Below, piece by piece: positions 7,862-49,703 of a DNA stretch of 53,104 bases; the first letter of the stretch is position 1; every line of letters begins with the position of its first letter. The position numbers and the translations under genes were made by a program. The stretch comes from Chloroflexota bacterium (lineage in GTDB: Bacteria; Chloroflexota; Anaerolineae; Anaerolineales; Villigracilaceae). The notes under the pieces were generated by a model. It was not told the origin of the DNA and did no database searches. It worked only from the letters and a program-made list of their open reading frames with translations. The DNA is taken from the NCBI GenBank assembly GCA_024434165.1, contig QMIW01000019.1, forward strand, positions 1 through 53,104, read 5' to 3'.

Positions 7862-7873
7862 GATTTCCTTTTG

Positions 7874-7923
7874 GTGATTGAGTAATTGGGTAATTAGAGA
7901 TTAGAGATTGGAGACTGAGAGGA
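7874..7923. repeat. Degenerate period-7 tract (GAGATTA/GAGATTG type)
   Basis: Consecutive units such as GAGATTA, GAGATTG and GAGACTG repeat every 7 bases with changes between units. It lies just upstream of the ABC start at 7861, in the marR-ABC gap. It is one of about twelve such tracts in the window. Confidence 0.7.
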
Positions 7924-7983
7924 GTGTACGATGAGATGTGAAGCGTATCGGCAGACGAATGGGTTACGTCTGGGTATTTATTT

Positions 7984-8048
7984 GTGTACCTGTGTACCTG
8001 TGTGCTTGTTTACCTGTCTATTTGTTTACCTGTCTACGTGTGTCCTGT
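7984..8048. repeat. Degenerate period-8 tract overlapping the end of marR
   Basis: Eight consecutive octamers run GTGTACCT, GTGTACCT, GTGTGCTT, GTTTACCT, GTCTATTT, GTTTACCT, GTCTACGT, GTGTCCTG. The marR stop codon (8034-8036) lies inside the tract, so the last residues of MarR are encoded by the repeat. Confidence 0.75.
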
Positions 8049-16073: not shown

Positions 16074-16127
16074 TCAAAGGTCGAAAGTCGAAGGTCAGGA
16101 TACGACTTTCGATTTTCGACCTTCAAC
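16074..16127. repeat. Period-7 tract with inverted halves
   Basis: Units CAAAGGT, CGAAAGT, CGAAGGT run one way, then CGACTTT, CGATTTT, CGACCTT run the other, so the tract can fold into a hairpin. It encodes the last residues of the DUF2277 protein (VEGRKSK). Confidence 0.75.
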
Positions 16128-16322
16128 TGTTTTTAAGTTTGCCAGGATTTTCCTTGTAGACTCCGCCACTTCTTCAATGGCTTTGTTGAACGCTTCTTCA
16201 TTTGCTTTTGACGGTTTGCGATACCCGCTCACTTTCCGCACGTATTGCAAAGCGGCTTCGTAAATCTCCTGCTCGGTGACGGGGTGATCCATATTTCTAA
16301 GGGGTTTGATGCTTCGGCACAT
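16095..16322 (-). CDS. DUF2277 family protein
   Basis: This small 75-residue protein matches the DUF2277 pattern closely: MCRSIKPL at the start, then EEIYEAALQYVRKVSGYRKPSKANEEAFNKAI (seen as TEQEIYEAALQYVRKVSG and RKPSKANEEAFNKAIEEV). Function of the family is unknown. The last ~11 residues (TVEGRKSKVVS) come from a period-7 repeat tract and are unlike other members, so the original C terminus has probably been replaced or extended by the repeat. GAGG precedes the ATG and a TATAAA box lies just upstream. Confidence 0.85.
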   Translation of the reverse strand: MCRSIKPLRNMDHPVTEQEIYEAALQYVRKVSGYRKPSKANEEAFNKAIEEVAESTRKILANLKTVEGRKSKVVS

Positions 16323-16657
16323 GATTACCTCTATTTATAGACTTCTTGCAAAAGTCACTTTTTTATCTTGCTCAAGGCGGCGTCCCCGCCGCCGAGGACT
16401 GCGGCGGGGGCACTTATACAAGAGGTTTATTTTGGCTCTTTGGGATTTGATGGAGTAAAACCCTTTTTGGACACAAAAAAACCAAAGGAAAATCCGTGTC
16501 GTCCGTGTACCGCCCCCACGTAATCCCAGAGAGCCTTTATTTTAGCGGTCTCGATACGGTCTCGCAAAGAACGCTCAACCTCTCGACAACCAGCCTCTTC
16601 CCTATTCCCTCTTCACTATTCCCTATTACCTCTTCCCTATTCCCTCTTCCCTATTCT
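16323..16657. other. 335-bp intergenic region between radA and the DUF2277 gene
   Basis: It contains the DUF2277 promoter (TATAAA near 16335), inverted copy C of the GC-rich palindrome (16376-16411), an AT-rich middle with short direct repeats of TCCGTGT (near 16494), and most of a CCTATTC/CCTCTTC period-7 tract. No coding potential or RNA gene was seen. Confidence 0.6.
16376..16411. repeat. GC-rich palindromic dispersed repeat, copy C (inverted)
   Basis: On the other strand it reads GCCCCCGCCGCAGTCCTCGG then CGGCGGGGACGCCGCC, matching copies A, B and D. Copy D (53051) and copy C are also both preceded at a distance by ACCTCTTGTA, suggesting the mobile unit is longer than the palindrome. Confidence 0.75.
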
Positions 16658-16672
16658 CTACTTCTCATTCCT
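16593..16672. repeat. Long period-7 tract (CCTATTC/CCTCTTC type) reaching into the radA stop codon
   Basis: About eleven consecutive heptamers: CCTCTTC, CCTATTC, CCTCTTC, ACTATTC, CCTATTA, CCTCTTC, CCTATTC, CCTCTTC, CCTATTC, TCTACTT, CTCATTC. The radA stop (16658-16660) and its last codons (NEK) lie in the final units. Confidence 0.85.
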
Positions 16673-18061
16673 CAACGCCGCACTCAACGCCTGATCCAAC
16701 GCGCGGACCTCGATGATCTCGATCCCTTTGGGATATTCCTCACCCTTCCGCAACGCTTTCGGGATGATGGCGGTCTTGAAGCCGAGTTTCTGCGCCTCAC
16801 GCAAACGCGCCACCATCTGACCGGGCATGCGCAGCTCGCCCGCCAAGCCGATCTCGCCGATCAGCACCGCATCCGCGCGGACGGGGACATCGCGCCACGA
16901 GGAAGCAATCGCAGCGGCGACCGCCAAATCGGCGGCGGGTTCGTCAATCTGGATGCCGCCCACCACGTTGACAAAGACATCCTGCTCGGCAAGTTCCAAC
17001 CCGACGCGGCGCGTCAACACCGCCGTGATCAACAGCAGGCGGTTGAAGTCCACACCGTTGGGCGTGCGGCGCGCGTTACCAAACTGGGTCGGCGAGGTGA
17101 GTCCTTGAATTTCGACCAAAATCGGGCGCGTGCCTTCCATCGTCACGGCAATCGCGGAGCCTGCCGCGTTCACCAGCCGCTCCGCCAAAAACGCCTCGGA
17201 CGGATTCAGCACCTCACTCAAGCCGCCTTCGCGCATCTCGAATACGCCCACCTCCGAGGTTGCGCCGAAGCGGTTCTTCACCGAGCGCAGCAGACGATAC
17301 GCCTGGAAGCGGTCGCCCTCCAAATAAAGCACCGTGTCCACGATATGCTCCAGCACGCGCGGACCGGCAATCGCGCCTTCTTTTGTCACATGCCCGATCA
17401 TGAACACCGTCACGCCGCTGGACTTTGCCAACTCCCGCAGCTGCGATGAACACTCGCGCACCTGCGAAACCGACCCCGCCGACGAATCCAACTCGGAGAG
17501 ATACGTGGTCTGGATGGAGTCAACAATCAGCAGGTCGGGCTTGGAAGCGTGGACGTGATTCAAAATCACTTCGAGGTTGGTTTCCGTCACCAGCAAAAGA
17601 TTCTTCGGCAAATCCTTCCCGCCATTGAACAGGCGCGAGGCGCGCATTTTGATCTGCCGCTCCGACTCCTCGCCTGACACGTACAGCACGCGCTGGACTT
17701 TCGCCATCTCCATCGCCATTTGCAGCATGAGCGTGGATTTGCCGATGCCCGGGTCGCCGCCCACGAGGACGATGGAGCCGTGAACGATGCCGCCGCCGAG
17801 CACGCGCGCGAACTCGCCGATGGGCAGGTGAACGCGATCCTCCGCCTCACCGCTGACCTCGGAGATGGGACGCGGTTCCGATCTGCCCGTCAGCCCGCGG
17901 ACGTTTCCCGCTCCCTTCCTGGAGACGGGTTCATCGTGGATGACTTCCTCGATCATGCTGTCGAACGCCCCGCACTGCGGACATTTGCCCATGTACGATG
18001 CAGACACTCGTCCGCATTGCTGGCAGACGTATCGGGTGTGGGATTTTGTTTTTGCCATCAA
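16658..18061 (-). CDS. radA: DNA repair protein RadA/Sms
   Basis: This 467-residue protein has standard length. It is a RecA-like branch-migration ATPase/helicase in homologous recombination. Domains: N-terminal C4 zinc finger (CQQCG then CPQCG, ~14-33), RecA core with Walker A GGDPGIGKST (~101), the RadA-specific KNRFG motif (VKNRFGATSEVGVF, ~263) and a C-terminal Lon-protease-like domain. It follows homoserine dehydrogenase in the same direction with ~80 bp between; that gap holds a TATACT box and a palindromic repeat whose GGGAG end supplies the ribosome binding site. The final codons are within a period-7 tract. Confidence 0.96.
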   Translation of the reverse strand: MMAKTKSHTRYVCQQCGRVSASYMGKCPQCGAFDSMIEEVIHDEPVSRKGAGNVRGLTGRSEPRPISEVSGEAEDRVHLPIGEFARVLGGGIVHGSIVLVGGDPGIGKSTLMLQMAMEMAKVQRVLYVSGEESERQIKMRASRLFNGGKDLPKNLLLVTETNLEVILNHVHASKPDLLIVDSIQTTYLSELDSSAGSVSQVRECSSQLRELAKSSGVTVFMIGHVTKEGAIAGPRVLEHIVDTVLYLEGDRFQAYRLLRSVKNRFGATSEVGVFEMREGGLSEVLNPSEAFLAERLVNAAGSAIAVTMEGTRPILVEIQGLTSPTQFGNARRTPNGVDFNRLLLITAVLTRRVGLELAEQDVFVNVVGGIQIDEPAADLAVAAAIASSWRDVPVRADAVLIGEIGLAGELRMPGQMVARLREAQKLGFKTAIIPKALRKGEEYPKGIEIIEVRALDQALSAALRNEK

Positions 18062-18065
18062 ATTA

Positions 18066-18105
18066 CTCCCCCCTCTCCTTTTAGGAGAGGGGACGGGGGT
18101 GAGGT
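18066..18105. repeat. REP-like palindrome (CCCCTCTCC...GGAGAGGGG) before radA
   Basis: CCCCTCTCC, TTTTA loop, GGAGAGGGG, followed by ACGGGGGTGAGG. A related unit occurs at 40858-40932 before the ribD-like gene. Read leftward, its end GGAGAGGGGGGAG provides the Shine-Dalgarno sequence of radA. Confidence 0.7.
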
Positions 18106-18141
18106 TGGGTGCGGTCAGTATAACAGAATTTTTGTTCTGTT

Positions 18142-19176
18142 TTACCTCACCACATTCACAAAATCGGCAAACAGACCGTACGCGGTTTCTTCGGGTCCGC
18201 CCTTCAGCCCTGCGCGTTCGGTGACCGTGATCGAATAATCGGGCAACACGTCGGTTCTGAATGTCAACCCTGTTGACGAGCCCATCATGCCATACAGCGG
18301 GGACAACGGCTCGACCAGTTCGGGAGCAACGCGGGCTTTGATCTGATTCCCAGTCCGTTCCGCCGAAGCGACCAGTTTCCAGCGCTTCCCTTCCGCTTGT
18401 GCCTGTTTCACCATCCCCGGCGTGATCTCCCGTATGCCTTTTCGCTCCGCATCCTGCGGCTTGAATGGGGTATCCATCAACACAGTCACCAGCGCGGCAA
18501 CCTTGACCGCCGCATCCCAGCCGTCCACGTCACCGGAGGGATCGGTCTCCGCGATGCCGATGCTTTGACAATACTTTACCGCATCGTCGAACGTCTCGCC
18601 GTCTTCCATGCGCGAGAGGATCAGGTTCGTCGTGGCGTTGATGATGCCCTTGAACGAAATCAACTCGGCAAGCGGCATCGCTTCGCGGAAAGTGGAAAAG
18701 ACGGGCGTCCCACCCAGCACGGTGGACTCGAAAAGAAATTTCCTCCCTTTTGAATTTGCCAGCGCAGTCAATTCTCGATAACCATGAACCACTGTTCCTT
18801 TGTTCGCTGTGATCGCGTGCATGCCTGCTTCCAACGCCGCGCGGACGTGATCAATGGCGGGCTGCCCGGTCTCGTAGTTGACAGGGGAATTTTCGAACAT
18901 GATGGTGGCTTGGGAGTGTTGAATTACAGAAAGAGAATTGGAGACTGGAGAATTGGAGATTGGGTCAATGGACTTTCCACTTTCCACTTTTTCCAGCGCT
19001 TGTTGAACATCGAGACCGTTTGGGTTTACTGCATGTCCATGTCTACCGGTGGCAACGCCTGTGATCGAATATGTGACGCCGTATTTTGCCTGGAGCAATT
19101 CACGCTTGCGTTCGAGCAGGTGGACCAGCGCGCGGGCAACGTTGCCAAAGCCGATGAAGCAAAGGTTGTGGTGCAT
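18142..19176 (-). CDS. hom: Homoserine dehydrogenase (short form, no ACT domain)
   Basis: This enzyme reduces aspartate semialdehyde to homoserine in threonine/methionine synthesis. I set the start at the ATG at 19176 (AGGAG 8 nt upstream; 344 residues), since the 17 codons above it lie in a repeat tract. The Rossmann motif is FIGFGNVARALVHLL. The catalytic region includes TANKGTVVHGY, ESTVLGGTPVF, GIINATTNLILSRM and ETDPSGDVDGWDAAVK (substrate Lys/Asp). Between GLDVQQALEK and the beta strand QATIMFENSP lies an insert, VESGKSIDPISNSPVSNSL, encoded by a period-7 repeat tract, a loop not expected in the family. It lies in a leftward gene run upstream of radA. Confidence 0.92.
   Translation of the reverse strand: MHHNLCFIGFGNVARALVHLLERKRELLQAKYGVTYSITGVATGRHGHAVNPNGLDVQQALEKVESGKSIDPISNSPVSNSLSVIQHSQATIMFENSPVNYETGQPAIDHVRAALEAGMHAITANKGTVVHGYRELTALANSKGRKFLFESTVLGGTPVFSTFREAMPLAELISFKGIINATTNLILSRMEDGETFDDAVKYCQSIGIAETDPSGDVDGWDAAVKVAALVTVLMDTPFKPQDAERKGIREITPGMVKQAQAEGKRWKLVASAERTGNQIKARVAPELVEPLSPLYGMMGSSTGLTFRTDVLPDYSITVTERAGLKGGPEETAYGLFADFVNVVR
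18931..18994. repeat. Period-7 tract inside the homoserine dehydrogenase gene
   Basis: Units such as GAGAATT, GGAGACT, GGAGAATT, GGAGATT and, after a short break, CTTTCCA, CTTTCCA, CTTTTTC. It is read in frame within hom and adds about 19-21 residues rich in Ser, Pro and Asn. Confidence 0.8.
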
Positions 19177-19196
19177 GGGGGGAACTCCTGATTCAG

Positions 19197-19253
19197 TTGA
19201 AGGTTGCAGGTCGAAGGTTGGGATCATTAAAACTTGGAACTTTCAACCTTCAG
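19197..19253. repeat. Period-7 tract with inverted halves upstream of hom
   Basis: GTTGAAG, GTTGCAG, GTCGAAG, GTTGGGA one way, then CTTGGAA, CTTTCAA, CCTTCAG as the inverse. Lies between the SCO1664-like gene and hom. Confidence 0.75.
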
Positions 19254-19259
19254 CGGGTC

Positions 19260-19961
19260 TTAGATTGGCGGGTACGGATACGCTCTGCGTCCCTGCGGAG
19301 GGCGGGGAAAAACCCGGGACGAGCACAAGGCTTCGGCGCGGTTCAAGAGGGCGCGAATCTCCCTCGGGCTGAGATAAGGCTCGAAGAGGGCGGAACAACT
19401 TTCAAGCGAGGAAAGAGGCGCGAGCAATTCGTCCGGAATCCTTTGCCCGGCAAAGTCCCACAGCACGGTGCGGAGTTTATATTCTTCGTGAAAACAAATC
19501 CCGTGATCAATGGCATAAAGATGGCGCGTGCCGTCCTCGAAAAAAATGTGACTGCCCTTGCGGTCGGCGTTGTTGGCGGCGAGGTCGAAGAGCGCGACGG
19601 GACGGAGTTTTTGTTTGTCTTCGGGCGTGAAGTTGAAGTAGTGATATTCGACGTCGTATTCGATGTATTGCTGGAGCGAACCGGGACCGTGCGGACCATC
19701 CTCCCGATAGACGGTGATCGGCACGATGTGAAAGCCGAGCGCTTCGCTCAGTTGATACGCGGCGGCTTCGCGCAACGCCAGCGTATTATCGGGAAAGTCC
19801 CACAACGGCTGTTCGCCTTTGCTGGGTTTGTACACGGCTTTGATGGTTTCCCCTGCATGATGCACATCCACGAGGAAGGTGTAGTTCGAACCGAGCATGA
19901 ACTGACCGCGGAGTTCGTAGTCGCCGTGGGTGAGGATGTTCTTCGTGTTGGGGGAATTCAT
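19260..19961 (-). CDS. SCO1664 family protein (PI3/4-kinase-like fold)
   Basis: This 233-residue protein of the SCO1664 family is distantly related to phosphatidylinositol 3-/4-kinases and HipA-type kinases. Seen: [21 protein letters not shown] with the ATP-binding Lys, a Glu in [15 protein letters not shown], a catalytic-like stretch [15 protein letters not shown] (Asn, Asp), and metal-like [15 protein letters not shown]. Substrate is unknown. Its gene is 61 bp from a DUF3090 gene in the same direction, the pairing known from actinobacteria, which supports the assignment and suggests the two act together. Confidence 0.85.
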
Positions 19962-19963
19962 AG

Positions 19964-20015
19964 TGGTCGAAAGTCAAAGGTCAAAGGTCTTTAACTTTCG
20001 ACCCTCGACCTTTGG
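19964..20015. repeat. Period-7 tract with inverted halves between the SCO1664-like and DUF3090 genes
   Basis: GGTCGAA, AGTCAAA, GGTCAAA, GGTCTTT, then AACTTTC, GACCCTC, GACCTTT. The second half is the approximate inverse of the first, so the RNA could fold as a hairpin. Confidence 0.75.
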
Positions 20016-20022
20016 CTTGGTT

Positions 20023-22293: not shown

Positions 22294-22311
22294 AGTTAGA
22301 GGTTGCAGGTT

Positions 22312-22350
22312 AACGTGGAAGCGGCGTTCAGGTCGTTTCCACGTTTTTGT
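22312..22350 (+). terminator. Intrinsic terminator after the mutase gene
   Basis: AACGTGGAA, ~20-nt loop, TTCCACGTT then a T-run. It overlaps the 3' end of the convergent symporter gene. A short AGTTAGA/GGTTGCA/GGTTAAC stretch (22294-22317) before it looks like a remnant period-7 tract. Confidence 0.7.
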
Positions 22351-35367: not shown

Positions 35368-35396
35368 CAATCGCAAATCGAAAATCGCAAATCGAA
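35368..35396. repeat. Period-7 tract running into the znuC start codon
   Basis: CAATCGC, AAATCGA, AAATCGC, AAATCGA, then ATG. The start codon directly follows the last unit; no Shine-Dalgarno sequence is visible. Confidence 0.8.
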
Positions 35397-36185
35397 ATGT
35401 CTCACACACCCCATCGTCTCGAAGTTCAAAACATCCGCGTCGGTTACGGCGAGAAGATCATTCTCGACGATCTGAGTTTTCAAATCCCGCACGGCGCGCG
35501 CGTCGCCGTGGTGGGACCGAACGGCGCGGGCAAGTCCACGCTGTTCAAGGCGCTGGTCGGGCTGCTGCCGTTGAAAAACGGGCAGATCCTGATTCACGGC
35601 GAGGCGCTCGGCTCGCACCGCGATTGCGTGGCGTACGTGCCCCAGCGCGAAGAAGTGGACTGGCGTTTTCCCGTCACCGTGCGGGATGTGGTGACGATGG
35701 GTCGTTTCGGGCAGATGGGCTGGCTCAAGAGTCCCTCCGCGCACGACAAGCAGATGGTAACCAACAGTCTCGCGCAGATGGGCATTGCAAACCTCGCGGA
35801 GAATCCCATCGGTCAGCTCTCCGGCGGTCAGCAGCAGCGCGCCTTCCTTGCCCGCGCCCTCGCGCAGGAGCCGCACATCCTTTTGATGGACGAACCGTTC
35901 ACCGGCGTGGACATCACCACGCAGGAGGCGACCCTGCGCCTGCTCGACCATTTGCAGGAACAGGAGGTGACGGCGATGGTCTCCACCCACGATTTGAACC
36001 TTGCCGGTTCGCGCTTCGACCTGGTGCTGCTGCTGAATCACCGCCTCATCGCCTTTGGTACGCCGCAGGAGGTTTTCATCAGGGAGAATCTCGCGCAGGC
36101 GTTCGGAAATTCCCTGCTGGTGATGGAAAACGGGGTGATGCTGGTGGACGAATGCTGTCCGCCGGAGGAAAAATTTAATGGTTGA
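35397..36185 (+). CDS. znuC: Zinc ABC transporter ATP-binding protein
   Basis: This 262-residue ATPase has Walker A GPNGAGKST (~40), Q-loop YVPQREEVDW, signature QLSGGQQQRAFLARAL, Walker B ILLMDEPFTGVD and switch His in VSTHDLNLA. The YVPQR..VDW pattern is typical of the metal-uptake subfamily that pairs with ZnuB/MntB permeases. It powers zinc import with ZnuB. The gene has no ribosome binding site; instead an A-rich period-7 tract runs up to its ATG. Confidence 0.93.
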   Translation: MSHTPHRLEVQNIRVGYGEKIILDDLSFQIPHGARVAVVGPNGAGKSTLFKALVGLLPLKNGQILIHGEALGSHRDCVAYVPQREEVDWRFPVTVRDVVTMGRFGQMGWLKSPSAHDKQMVTNSLAQMGIANLAENPIGQLSGGQQQRAFLARALAQEPHILLMDEPFTGVDITTQEATLRLLDHLQEQEVTAMVSTHDLNLAGSRFDLVLLLNHRLIAFGTPQEVFIRENLAQAFGNSLLVMENGVMLVDECCPPEEKFNG

Positions 36186-36209
36186 CCGCCGCTTCCATCA
36201 AGACCCTCC

Positions 36210-36246
36210 ACAATCGTAAATCCAAAATCCAAAATCTAAAACCGTA
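36210..36246. repeat. Period-7 tract running into the znuB start codon
   Basis: CAATCGT, AAATCCA, AAATCCA, AAATCTA, AAACCGT, then AATG. As for znuC, the start codon follows directly with no Shine-Dalgarno sequence. Confidence 0.8.
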
Positions 36247-37062
36247 ATGTCCTTTCTCCTCCAGCCTCTCACCTACGAATTCATGCAGCGCGGACTGCTC
36301 GCCTCGGTCATCGTCGGCGTGCTGTGCGCAGTGATGGGAACCTACGTCGTCCTGCGCGGCATGGCGTTCCTTGGAGACGCAATGGCGCACGCCATTCTGC
36401 CCGGCGTGGCAATCGCCTACATTCTCAAAGGGGATCTGCTGGTCGGGGCGGGGGCGGCGGCAATCGCCGTGGCGCTGACCATCGGCTTGTTCTCGAAGGA
36501 AGGCGCCGTCAAGGAGGATACCGCCATCGGCATCCTGTTTGCGGCGGCGCTTTCTTTGGGAGTGGCGCTCATCAGCACCATGCAGACCTACGCGGTGGAT
36601 CTATCCCACATCCTGTTCGGCAACGTCCTGGGGGTCAGCCCTTCCGATCTGTGGTTGATCGGCGGGTTGAGCGCCGCCATTTTGTGTACGGTGGCATTGC
36701 TCTACAAGCCCTTCCTCGTTATTTCGTTCGATCCCGTCCTCGCCGCTACGCTGCGCCTGCCCGCCGAGCTCCTGCGGAATCTTATGCTCGTCCTGCTGGC
36801 GCTGACGGTGGTGGTTTCGCTTCAAACGGTGGGCGTCAGTCTCGCCGCCGCCATGCTGGTCACGCCCGCCGCGACGGCGTACCTGCTCACCCGCCGCCTT
36901 TTGCCGATGATGCTGGTCTCGGCGTTGATCGGCGCATTATCTTCCATGATCGGCTTGTATCTCAGTTATTATTTCAACATCGTTTCGGGGTCTGCCATTG
37001 TGTTGACTGCAACGGCATTTTTCCTCATCGGTTTCGGCTGGAAGCGGCTGCGCCGGACATGA
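36247..37062 (+). CDS. znuB: Zinc ABC transporter permease
   Basis: This 271-residue protein has about eight to nine membrane segments. Family hallmarks: LLQPLTYEFMQRGLLASVIVG at the N terminus (QRGL), GTYVVLRGMAFLGDAMAHAILPG, DLSHILFGNVLGVS and VSLQTVGVSLAAAMLVTPAATAYLLT. It forms the zinc pore with ZnuC. It is the last gene of the regulator-znuA-znuC-znuB unit. The ATG follows a period-7 tract without a ribosome binding site. Confidence 0.93.
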   Translation: MSFLLQPLTYEFMQRGLLASVIVGVLCAVMGTYVVLRGMAFLGDAMAHAILPGVAIAYILKGDLLVGAGAAAIAVALTIGLFSKEGAVKEDTAIGILFAAALSLGVALISTMQTYAVDLSHILFGNVLGVSPSDLWLIGGLSAAILCTVALLYKPFLVISFDPVLAATLRLPAELLRNLMLVLLALTVVVSLQTVGVSLAAAMLVTPAATAYLLTRRLLPMMLVSALIGALSSMIGLYLSYYFNIVSGSAIVLTATAFFLIGFGWKRLRRT

Positions 37063-39253: not shown

Positions 39254-40857
39254 ACCCCAAATCTCCAATTACCAATTACCGATTACGACTCTTTCTCCAC
39301 CTTCTGCTTTCCATTCTCCTTTTCTCTTGCGCTTCCCCAACGCCAGCCCCCACGCCCTTACCCTTTGCGCGCTTCATCCTCCCCACGCGCGACCCAAACG
39401 CCACGCCCACGCCTTTCCAACCCTCCGGGCAGGTGAACACCCCCGTTCCGACGTTTACCCTGTCGCCGATTCCCAGCGCGACGTTCACCCCCACCACGCC
39501 TCCCACCGCAACGTGGACATCGCCTCCCGCCCCGCCGACAGTTGCTTCTGATTCCCCAACCTCCCCGCCGCCGACAGCGCCGGCTTCCTCGCGTCCGAAC
39601 TACATCCTTTACGCGACGCTGGATTTCAACAACAAAACCGCCGCGGTTGATCAGACCATTCGTTACCCCAACAGGACAGGCTCGACCCTGAACGAACTTG
39701 TCTTCTCCGTCCAGCCGAATCTCTACACCAACGCTTTCGTCCTCAATTCCATATCGCAGGATGGAAGCGCGCTCACCTCCTACACCCTCAGCGGACAACG
39801 CCTGACCGTCAACTTGAACCAACCGCTGGCATCCGGCGCGGCGACCACGATTTCGCTCAACTTCAACCTCAACATCCCCGCCAAGAACGCAAACGACGTC
39901 TTCGGCTACGACTTCAACCAGATCAACCTCACAGACTGGTACCCGTTCATCGTCCCGCACCGGGGCGGGTGGATTTTGCACGACCCCATGCCGTGGGGCG
40001 AGCATCTCGTCTACGACTCGTGCGACGTCGAGCTGAATATCAAGACCGATTCGGGCGTGATTCTGGCTGTGGGCGCATCCCCCGAAGCCAACGGCGAATG
40101 GACGCGCTACCGCATGTATGGCGCGCGCACCCTGGCGCTCTCCGCCAGCAATGAATTCCTCGTTGCGGAAACCACGCTGGGGAACGTCAGCATCCGCTCG
40201 TATTATTTCAACGGCTACAGGAACGCGGGCGACGACATGCTGATTTATGCCAGCGAAGCCGTCGAAACGTATTCCGCCCAATTCGCGCCCTACCCGCACC
40301 AGACGCTCGCCATTGTGCAGACCGACATGGACGACGGGCAGGAGTTCGACGGATTGGTCTTCCTTTCGACGGATTTCTACGCTCAATACAACGGGACCGC
40401 CCGCAGCAACCTGACCACCATCGGCGTGCATGAGATCGCGCACCAATGGTGGTACAGCCTGGTGGGCAGCGATCACGCCCTCGAACCCTGGCTCGATGAG
40501 GCGCTTTCCACCTACAGCGAGCGGATTTTCTACGAAAACAACTATCCCGCCAACGTCAGCTGGTGGTGGCAGTTCCGCATTGATTTCTTCAAACCCAGCG
40601 GCTACGTGGACGCGACCATCTACGATTACGGCACGTTCCGCGCCTACACCAACGCCGTCTATTTCCAGGGCGCCTACTTTCTCGATGAATTACGCGAGCA
40701 GATGGGCTACGGCAATTTCTCGAAATTCCTGAAAACCTACGCCGCGCGCTTCGCCAACGGTCACGCCGCCTCGGCGGATTTCTTCGCCCTGGCACGCGAG
40801 ACGGTCAACATCAATTACGATGGTTTGATCGCGAAATATTTTTCGGGGTCGTATTAG
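39250..40857 (+). CDS. M1-like (gluzincin) metallopeptidase lipoprotein, copy 2
   Basis: This 535-residue tandem paralogue of the previous gene is translationally coupled to it. Signal LHLLLSILLFSC with lipobox Cys ~26, then a long Thr/Pro-rich linker (~28-115). The same catalytic pattern: HEIAHQWW and WLDEALSTYSERIFYE. The GAMEN position reads DDGQEFDGLVFLS, further altered. Its first residues (NPKSPITNYRLRLF) are encoded by a period-7 tract, which means the repeat forms the positively charged start of the signal peptide. Extracellular peptide hydrolysis is expected; specificity is unknown. Confidence 0.88.
   Translation: MNPKSPITNYRLRLFLHLLLSILLFSCASPTPAPTPLPFARFILPTRDPNATPTPFQPSGQVNTPVPTFTLSPIPSATFTPTTPPTATWTSPPAPPTVASDSPTSPPPTAPASSRPNYILYATLDFNNKTAAVDQTIRYPNRTGSTLNELVFSVQPNLYTNAFVLNSISQDGSALTSYTLSGQRLTVNLNQPLASGAATTISLNFNLNIPAKNANDVFGYDFNQINLTDWYPFIVPHRGGWILHDPMPWGEHLVYDSCDVELNIKTDSGVILAVGASPEANGEWTRYRMYGARTLALSASNEFLVAETTLGNVSIRSYYFNGYRNAGDDMLIYASEAVETYSAQFAPYPHQTLAIVQTDMDDGQEFDGLVFLSTDFYAQYNGTARSNLTTIGVHEIAHQWWYSLVGSDHALEPWLDEALSTYSERIFYENNYPANVSWWWQFRIDFFKPSGYVDATIYDYGTFRAYTNAVYFQGAYFLDELREQMGYGNFSKFLKTYAARFANGHAASADFFALARETVNINYDGLIAKYFSGSY
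39258..39290. repeat. Period-7 tract coding for the N terminus of the second peptidase
   Basis: AATCTCC, AATTACC, AATTACC, GATTACG, ACTCTTT. Read in frame just after the ATG at 39250. Confidence 0.75.
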
Positions 40858-42405: not shown

Positions 42406-42412
42406 GTAGGGG

Positions 42413-42457
42413 GCAGGTTGAAGGTTGAAGGTTGAAGGTTACATGTTGAAGGGTTGT
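42413..42457. repeat. Period-7 tract before the SDR gene
   Basis: GGTTGAA, GGTTGAA, GGTTGAA, GGTTACA, TGTTGAA, GGGTTG. It starts 8 bp after the ribA stop and ends ~17 bp before the next ATG. Confidence 0.85.
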
Positions 42458-49662: not shown

Positions 49663-49703
49663 CCCTGGTCTACGGTCCACCATCCACCATCTACTCTTCC
49701 ACA
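49663..49703. repeat. Period-7 tract at the end of the malic enzyme gene
   Basis: CAATCGT, CCCTGGT, CTACGGT, CCACCAT, CCACCAT, CTACTCT, TCCAC. The malic enzyme stop (49691-49693) lies in it. Confidence 0.75.

Follow-up and report, generated by a model that had tools for sequence, protein, structure and literature searches.

Why does a bacterial chromosome carry many short arrays whose unit is almost always seven bases long but whose sequence changes from site to site? The question is raised by a 53,104-nucleotide stretch of a Chloroflexota bacterium of the Anaerolineales family Villigracilaceae (contig QMIW01000019.1, positions 1 to 53,104; hereafter the window), which makes up all of contig C67 in a genome (G000) of 4.4 Mb and 173 contigs. 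A sequence-only reading had listed 12 degenerate period-7 tracts in the window, lying between genes and at gene ends, and had suggested slippage growth or a shared copying process as their origin. Tandem Repeats Finder (TRF) calls an array at 11 of the 12 sites, 22294 being the exception, and the analyses below confirm that the period-7 observation is real. As to its cause, we lean toward seven-base slippage or template switching combined with copying, or a shared constraint, of the repeated words, with base pairing preserved at some spacers.

We scanned 293,104 bases of the genome (the window plus C61:1-180000 and C148:1-60000, the latter two not chosen for repeats) for places where at least 15 of 18 positions match at a given lag. 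Period 7 yielded 19 tracts, 13 in non-coding DNA and 6 in predicted genes; every other period from 4 to 13 yielded 0 to 4, and the longer periods 14 (a harmonic), 15, and 21 yielded 7, 5, and 6. Three second-order Markov simulations gave 0, 0, and 0 period-7 tracts. Runs with at least four identical 4-mer anchors, counted over 2.08 Mb of the group's DNA, showed the same preference (250 at period 7, versus 32 at 8, 20 at 6, 13 at 9, 1 at 5, and zero at 10 and 11). We also examined 74 named loci (1.0 Mb) around relatives of P0001, a 233-amino-acid protein encoded in the window whose closest named relatives are Chloroflexi/Anaerolineales metagenome-assembled genomes (CFX11, 88% identity; one Candidatus Villigracilaceae). 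These loci contain 73 period-7 runs, one of them poly-T, 1 to 11 runs at each other period from 4 to 13, and 38 at period 14.

A lag-7 autocorrelation peak confined to non-coding DNA had been proposed as a check. In the 293 kb, mean non-coding autocorrelation at lag 7 is 0.2631 (z 3.2 versus shuffles), above lags 5, 8, 10, and 11 (0.2607, 0.2529, 0.2510, and 0.2529), and coding DNA shows no lag-7 rise (0.2469, versus 0.2452 at lag 8 and 0.2444 at lag 10). The rise is thus restricted to non-coding DNA, as proposed, but it is modest, lying below lags 1 to 4 and below all multiples of three through 21, whose high values probably come from missed coding DNA. Assembly artefact is an unlikely source of the tracts, because they occur at orthologous places in other assemblies and in the single-contig genomes G021 and G026, each with four period-7 tracts in 200 kb. 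Rfam at its gathering threshold returned zero matches in the window.

A census of nine stretches totaling 1.49 Mb contains 129 tracts. The stretches from G138, G113, and G176 were picked by their AATTACC matches, and for that reason their tract densities are not used, although their tracts are counted among the 129. The tracts carry 63 distinct consensus words, which bears out the claim that units vary under a constant period. The words also recur from site to site: 221 pairs of tracts share an identical consensus word, against a mean of 14 for letter-shuffled words (some pairs between G000 and its relative G017 are orthologous), and the excess over shuffled words is seen within single genomes (28 versus 1.1 in G113, 11 versus 0.8 in G138, 9 versus 0.5 in G017, and 2 versus 0.3 in G000). 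The commonest words are AATTACC, ACTGATC, AACTGAT, AATCTCC, and AAAGTCG.

Particular words are abundant in particular genomes. We searched 80 whole genomes of the family with four words, allowing one mismatch, counting overlapping places, and using the pattern written backwards as a control. AATTACC was found at 601 places in 34 of the 80 genomes (8 backwards; 143 places in G113, 93 in G138, 56 in G176, 10 in G000, and 2 in G033), ACTGATC at 270 places in 28 (0 backwards; G113 49, G176 36, G122 35), GAAGGTT at 157 places in 34 (2 backwards; G033 37, G012 17, G000 13, G113 0), and AAATCGC at 37 places in 6 (0 backwards). G026 and G023 had no match to any of the four words, and G021 had one. Across the phylum, 17 of 400 genomes contain AATTACC arrays, comprising 14 of the 25 sampled from the same family and 3 of the 375 sampled elsewhere.

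These distributions bear directly on plain local slippage, in which a polymerase would duplicate any random 7-mer in place, followed by decay, with neither exchange between sites nor preferred words. This corresponds to the polymerase-contact idea of Mrazek and colleagues, as cited in PMC4679880. Local slippage accommodates the strong period bias, the 7-nt steps between orthologs at two sites described below, an intergenic bias explicable by the cost of frame shifts, and the lack of a clear excess of shared words within genomes over those shared between genomes, but it does not predict that words reappear at other sites far more often than composition shuffling allows, that different genomes amplify different words, that variants shun certain word positions, or that divergent spacers are under-used. 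Because words recur above the shuffled expectation and burst by genome, they spread or are constrained, and local slippage alone, which the sequence-only reading had offered as one possible means of growth, falls short. We regard it as a somewhat unlikely complete account.

The arrays turn over quickly between congeners. Window DNA is mostly 83 to 94% identical to that of G017 and mostly 70 to 83% identical to that of the congeners G021 and G026. The clearest step is at 35368 to 35397 (forward strand; TRF), where AATCGCA/AATCGAA heptads immediately 5' of an ABC ATPase start codon are exactly one unit (7 nt) longer in G017, with no clear tract in G021 or G026. At 7873 to 7914, an unstructured tract of GGTAATT, ATTAGAG, and ATTGGAG words (TRF calls at 7873 with period 8 and at 7893 with period 7; fold z 0.24), the alignment of the window with G017 contains a 7-nt gap. 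Seven-base steps at these two sites are in line with the part of the earlier proposal that concerned slippage-type growth. Net differences of 7 nt from G017, accompanied by other changes, occur at two further sites. One is the hairpin at 19962 to 20022, discussed below. The other is the array at 42408 to 42452 (forward strand), which separates a GTP-cyclohydrolase-II gene from a short-chain dehydrogenase gene. This array is built of GAAGGTT in the window and of CAGGTAT/CAGGTTA in G017 and is absent from G021 and G026, where the flanking genes overlap (ATGAATAA).

Elsewhere in the window the words themselves, or the very presence of a tract, differ between relatives. The longest tract, 9.6 units of CCTATTC/CCTCTTC at 16594 to 16660 (TRF; unstructured), lies at the 3' end of a gene with Pfam AAA_25, zinc ribbon, and Lon_C matches, which we take to be RadA-like; in G017 the tract is shorter and reads CTCTATT/CTCTACT. 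A malic-enzyme-like gene has GGTCTAC/CCACCAT heptads at its 3' end (49663 to 49694; TRF; fold z -2.2), and the words there differ in G017 and G021. No clear tract exists in G021 or G026 at 36207 to 36247 (forward strand; TRF), where AATCGTA/AATCCAA/AATCTAA heptads lie immediately 5' of an ABC-3 permease start codon, or at 39258 to 39287 (forward strand; TRF), where AATTACC heptads fall within the opening codons of a gene for a Peptidase_M1-domain protein. A weak tract at 22294 to 22317, 3' of a methylmalonyl-CoA mutase gene and with no TRF call, is clearer in G017. Lengths were compared with G017 by alignment at 7874, 16074, 19964, 22294, 35368, 39258, and 42413; the anchors at 36210 and 49663 are too distant for such a comparison.

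A degenerate period-8 tract of TGTGTACC type lies beside the heptads of 7873, at 7983 to 8048 (TRF periods 8 and 16), and is partly present in G017; it was not one of the 12 tracts listed by the sequence-only reading. Period-8 words also form the hairpin in the spacer upstream of P0001 in the relative L109, with weaker folds in L095 and L108.

Where do the tracts lie relative to genes? Genes were predicted with a home-made codon score, and the resulting figure of 45 of 129 tracts in coding DNA is therefore rough; the other 84 are intergenic, whereas only 18.9% of the DNA is non-coding (p about 2e-30), in agreement with the earlier statement that the tracts concentrate between genes. For the 83 tracts with two neighbors, the spacer is co-directional in 74 cases (spacer length predicts 68%), convergent in 6, and divergent in 3 (against a predicted 20%). 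Measured as medians, tracts lie 4 nt from the upstream stop codon and 29 nt from the next predicted start downstream, and 38 of the 74 co-directional tracts are within 30 nt of a predicted start codon. The same 74 tracts show no strand preference: on the sense strand, 35 are C-rich and 39 are G-rich. A Rho-utilization signal or another signal in sense-strand RNA was considered and dropped because of this lack of strand preference.

Tracts may also occupy a coding frame. At 18931 to 18990 (TRF), ATTGGAG and ACTTTCC words lie inside the frame of a homoserine dehydrogenase gene (Pfam Homoserine_dh); at these codons, several orthologs have heptads made of different words. The segment is 45 codons long in both the window (AATCTCCAATTCTCC) and L069 (CTTTCCTCTTTCC) and two codons longer in L081 (ACCAATTACCAATTACC) and some others. 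In L083, a CTGAGCAACGTCGAAGGG-type stretch stands in frame beside heptad words, and the variable segment reaches 55 codons. In G017 (L068, 8801 onwards), the homoserine dehydrogenase frame stops after 112 amino acids at the heptad tract, where there is a palindromic insert with no counterpart seen in the window.

Substitutions within the arrays fall at preferred positions of the word. We tabulated listed arrays with exactly one mismatch, in which neighboring windows of one array are counted repeatedly. Among the matches listed, the varying position is 5, 6, or 7 in 127 of the 132 ACTGATC rows; 2, 4, or 7 in 99 of the 108 AATTACC rows; and 1, 2, 4, or 7 in 93 of the 104 GAAGGTT rows. In ACTG-anchored arrays from the Chloroflexota DNA that we retrieved, 142 units have T at position 6 in 116 cases, C in 21, A in 5, and G in none. 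Position 6 is also T in 36 of 36 cyanobacterial units and 18 of 18 units from other plasmids, most of these arrays having been selected by query: all three arrays on non-cyanobacterial plasmids are matches of a query that itself held ACTG-N-T-N words, and six of the nine cyanobacterial arrays lie on one record (L205) at or near its query match. Only three ACTG arrays, on the Nostoc stretch L207, are unselected, and all three agree with T at position 6. The ACTG rule is accordingly weaker across phyla, where it depends mostly on query-selected arrays. For AATC-anchored arrays, the pattern AATCNHA fits every unit of 10 of 21 Chloroflexota arrays, 3 of 4 cyanobacterial arrays, and 0 of 3 arrays on other plasmids; of 82 Chloroflexota units, 78 have a base other than G at position 6 and 63 have A at position 7. 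A universal AC/GT core is enriched at invariant neighboring positions (27 of 72, versus 22% overall; p 0.001), but we do not claim it, because it is not enriched in cyanobacterial tracts (0 of 6).

Words are also shared more widely than the phylum. Cyanobacterial plasmid stretches (550 kb, Nostoc and relatives) contain 20 tracts at period 7, 12 at period 9, and at most 3 at any other period from 4 to 13. Of their 14 distinct tract words, 4 are common to the family set, against 0.96 expected (p 0.011); the four plasmid records in this test were found by a heptad query, and the stretches taken from them exclude the match places. An earlier lexicon test (7 of 20 words shared, versus 1.5) was set aside since it included heptad-query plasmids and tracts beside the matches. 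The heptads of Cyanobacteria, Proteobacteria, and Chloroflexota might follow a single grammar, in which four fixed bases precede a free base, T, and a free base, or close variants of it (A-C-N-A-N-T-Y and AATC-N-H-A). It would arise from an undescribed activity of the cell that reads, copies, or tolerates DNA seven bases at a time and is active in some congeneric species and not in others. We offer this idea as a speculative and, on present evidence, unlikely one.

Fixed and free positions would also suit arrays that serve as sites for a regulator or an RNA-binding protein reading a core every seven bases, with the fixed positions as contacts. Published motifs with similar layouts and the location of tracts in co-directional gene runs, often near predicted starts (the 38 of 74 given above), are consistent with such a role. 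The even split between C-rich-sense and G-rich-sense tracts, the many unrelated words within one genome, and the empty sites in congeners that have the same neighboring genes all speak against it, and we think it quite improbable that binding would explain the arrays.

Inverted halves had been reported for several tracts. This feature is genuine for a minority: an inverted partner arm (score of at least 10) is present within 60 nt of 36 of the 128 tracts, compared with 2.6% of swapped controls, and 4 of the 12 window tracts that we folded (a set that includes the period-8 tract and leaves out 22294) have z below -2, namely 16074, 19197, 19964, and 49663; the remaining eight do not. The hairpin at 16074 to 16130 (reverse strand; z -6.7) is made of GTCGAAA words and is flanked by a DUF2277 gene and a toast_rack gene. 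The hairpin at 19196 to 19250 (reverse strand; z -2.3) is made of GTTGAAG words between the P0001 and dehydrogenase genes, just 5' of an AGGAG; in G017 and G026 other stem-loop elements occupy its place, and G021 has a hairpin composed of different words there. In this same spacer, 3' of the P0001 gene, L068, L092, L094, and L097 have stem-loops of TGTCATTGCGAG or TGTCGTTGCGAG type, L072, L095, and L108 have stem-loops of GTAGGGGCG type, and L083 has one of GTGACAGTCAC type.

The heptad hairpin at 19962 to 20022 (reverse strand; z -5.6), between a DUF3090 gene and P0001, could be followed through many relatives. We folded the spacer upstream of P0001 in 43 of 45 loci tried plus the window, several of the folded sequences running past the start codon by some bases, and 29 of these 44 orthologous spacers fold with z below -2. 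Their words differ (GTCGAAA, GTTGAAG, and GTTACAG types, and period-8 words in L109). In an alignment of 17 GTC-type spacers chosen by eye, 5 of 14 predicted pairs show double changes that keep pairing; the best is column pair 24-47 (AU 7, GC 6, GU 2), and column pair 20-51 has AU 10 and GC 4. At this spacer, pairing has been kept in many relatives as the words were replaced. Two of the 29 spacers, in L085 and L110, form strong hairpins of unrelated short repeats (GACGCAGATGAACGC and CACAGAGATCACAGAG, respectively).

Stem-loops after stop codons, which some of the tracts are, recall the palindromes of repetitive extragenic palindromic (REP) sequences and bacterial interspersed mosaic elements (BIMEs), moved by REP-associated tyrosine transposases (RAYTs) of the Y1 type. 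Y1 proteins occur in 78 of the 80 family genomes, and their number correlates weakly with array count (Spearman 0.27, p 0.017, uncorrected). Array-poor G026 (5) and G021 (5) carry Y1 proteins too, however, 92 of 128 tracts have no inverted arm at the score used, and there is no single mobile sequence; we consider mobilization by RAYTs a very unlikely explanation.

A constant period, genome-specific word types, and degenerate positions might instead reflect a telomerase-like reverse transcriptase that copies a short RNA template, as in DRT10, with the product inserted into the chromosome. According to PMC12632851, the DRT10 defense system produces tandem-repeat DNA, although with a period of 9 nt in one system and other lengths elsewhere. 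The distribution of reverse transcriptases does not follow that of the arrays. Seven genomes with at least 15 array matches have no RVT_1 match, including G176 (112) and G033 (40); 12 genomes with RVT_1 matches have zero four-word matches; and the two counts are not clearly correlated (Spearman 0.17, p 0.14, n 80). Array-rich genomes without an RVT_1 match led us to reject RVT_1-type enzymes as the general cause, and the lack of such a match in G176 and G033 indicates that a reverse transcriptase is not required; the chance that such copying underlies the arrays is next to negligible. One RVT_1 domain (E 9.6e-38) is present in the window's own genome, at G000:C61:2896-3582.

The explanation toward which we lean would combine several processes. 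Arrays would gain and lose units in seven-base steps through replication slippage or template switching, a mechanism suggested by the steps seen at two sites. The same words would appear at different sites either by arrays copying one another or by a common bias or constraint that favors certain words. Arrays accumulate mainly in co-directional spacers, just past stop codons and clear of divergent promoter regions, and a tract copied onto itself in inverted order would yield a stem-loop. The retention of the stem at 19962 to 20022 would be most simply explained if an intercistronic RNA hairpin were useful there or if the two arms corrected one another during replication.

Several results weigh against this explanation. 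Among the candidates examined (RVT_1 and Y1, in 80 family genomes), we identified no copying enzyme or copying event. Identical words account for 2 of 171 pairs within G000 and 19 of 532 between G000 and G113, and for 9 of 561 within G017 and 22 of 952 between G017 and G113; only G113 stands out for sharing within the genome (28 of 378 pairs). Because sharing is not clearly greater within genomes than between them, these counts favor a shared constraint on words, or descent, over copying inside each genome. The bursts may likewise reflect descent, as the burst counts ignore kinship, and the near-emptiness of G021, G026, and G023 is unexplained by slippage alone. Not every site changes by sevens: relative to G017, the tract at 16074 has the same length with a few substitutions, that at 39258 has the same length with changed words, and that at 22294 differs in length by 15. 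Fixed positions are not predicted by slippage plus copying. At the P0001 spacer, 15 of the 44 orthologs lack a fold with z below -2, and the RNAalifold covariation term for the hand-picked alignment is small (-0.18).

How do these arrays relate to known heptad systems? The sequence-only reading had pointed to the short tandemly repeated repetitive (STRR) sequences of heterocystous cyanobacteria, reportedly described by Mazel and colleagues in 1990. The resemblance stands: tandem seven-base units of several word types are found here as in cyanobacterial STRR, and plasmid DNA of Nostoc and relatives peaks at period 7 as well (the 20 tracts in 550 kb). The phylum differs, however, and the STRR1-3 consensus words are not the main words here. 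Identity with STRR1-3 was rejected, the relatives of the window being Anaerolineales with AATTACC, ACTGATC, and the like as their commonest words.

Heptamer arrays are known in many prokaryotes (PMC6344855, PMC4679880, PMC4692102, PMC4476775), among them three tandem heptanucleotides in Calothrix (PMC4692102). In the P6b region of the Nostoc trnL intron, heptads of Class I (TDNGATT) and Class II (NNTGAGT) make up a stem that is kept while the word class is repeatedly replaced (PMC4476775), as in the P0001 spacer; that stem lies inside a group I intron, whereas the window hairpin lies between two protein genes. The reverse complement of Class I, AATCNHA, is the pattern obeyed throughout by 10 of our 21 AATC-anchored Chloroflexota arrays and not by the other 11. 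In Xanthomonas, (GGGANTN)n arrays have positions 1 to 4 and 6 conserved and 5 and 7 free (PMC4692102), a layout of four fixed bases, a free base, T, and a free base identical to that of ACTGNTN here. Those arrays are about 90% intergenic, include many inverted pairs, and have their prominent repeats at different genes in two species (PMC4692102); the intergenic bias, inverted pairs, and non-shared gene sites match our arrays, but the G runs there can form G-quadruplexes, whereas GGG does not occur in the main words here. TAACTGA repeats, known from Beggiatoaceae, Bacteroidetes, and some Cyanobacteria and proposed to be read by a regulator or an RNA-binding protein (PMC4679880), share the period, and their rotation AACTGAT is among the G017 words. 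They consist of one exact word, placed in BOGUAY mostly just before starts, in contrast to the many words without orientation preference here; with 63 distinct words in 129 tracts and orientations split 35 to 39, we rejected identity with this regulatory repeat. Finally, the statement that no family is named in Chloroflexota does not hold, since (GATAGRA)n heptamer satellites are printed for Chloroflexus aurantiacus (PMC6749651). These are heptamers of the same phylum, but of a single word and in the genus Chloroflexus, not in Anaerolineales. Among the papers listed by our literature searches on heptamer repeats, mostly from outside subscription journals, none was on Anaerolineae as judged by title or by the occurrence of that word.

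Together, these results place the arrays in the broad STRR-like class of prokaryotic heptanucleotide repeats, as a dispersed set in this family of Anaerolineales. The fixed-position layout is the part that deserves follow-up. The family offers leverage on the cause of heptad arrays, since it includes congeneric genomes that are rich in arrays or nearly empty of them and amplifies different words in different genomes; its fixed and free positions can be compared across phyla, and it contains one spacer whose stem outlives its words.

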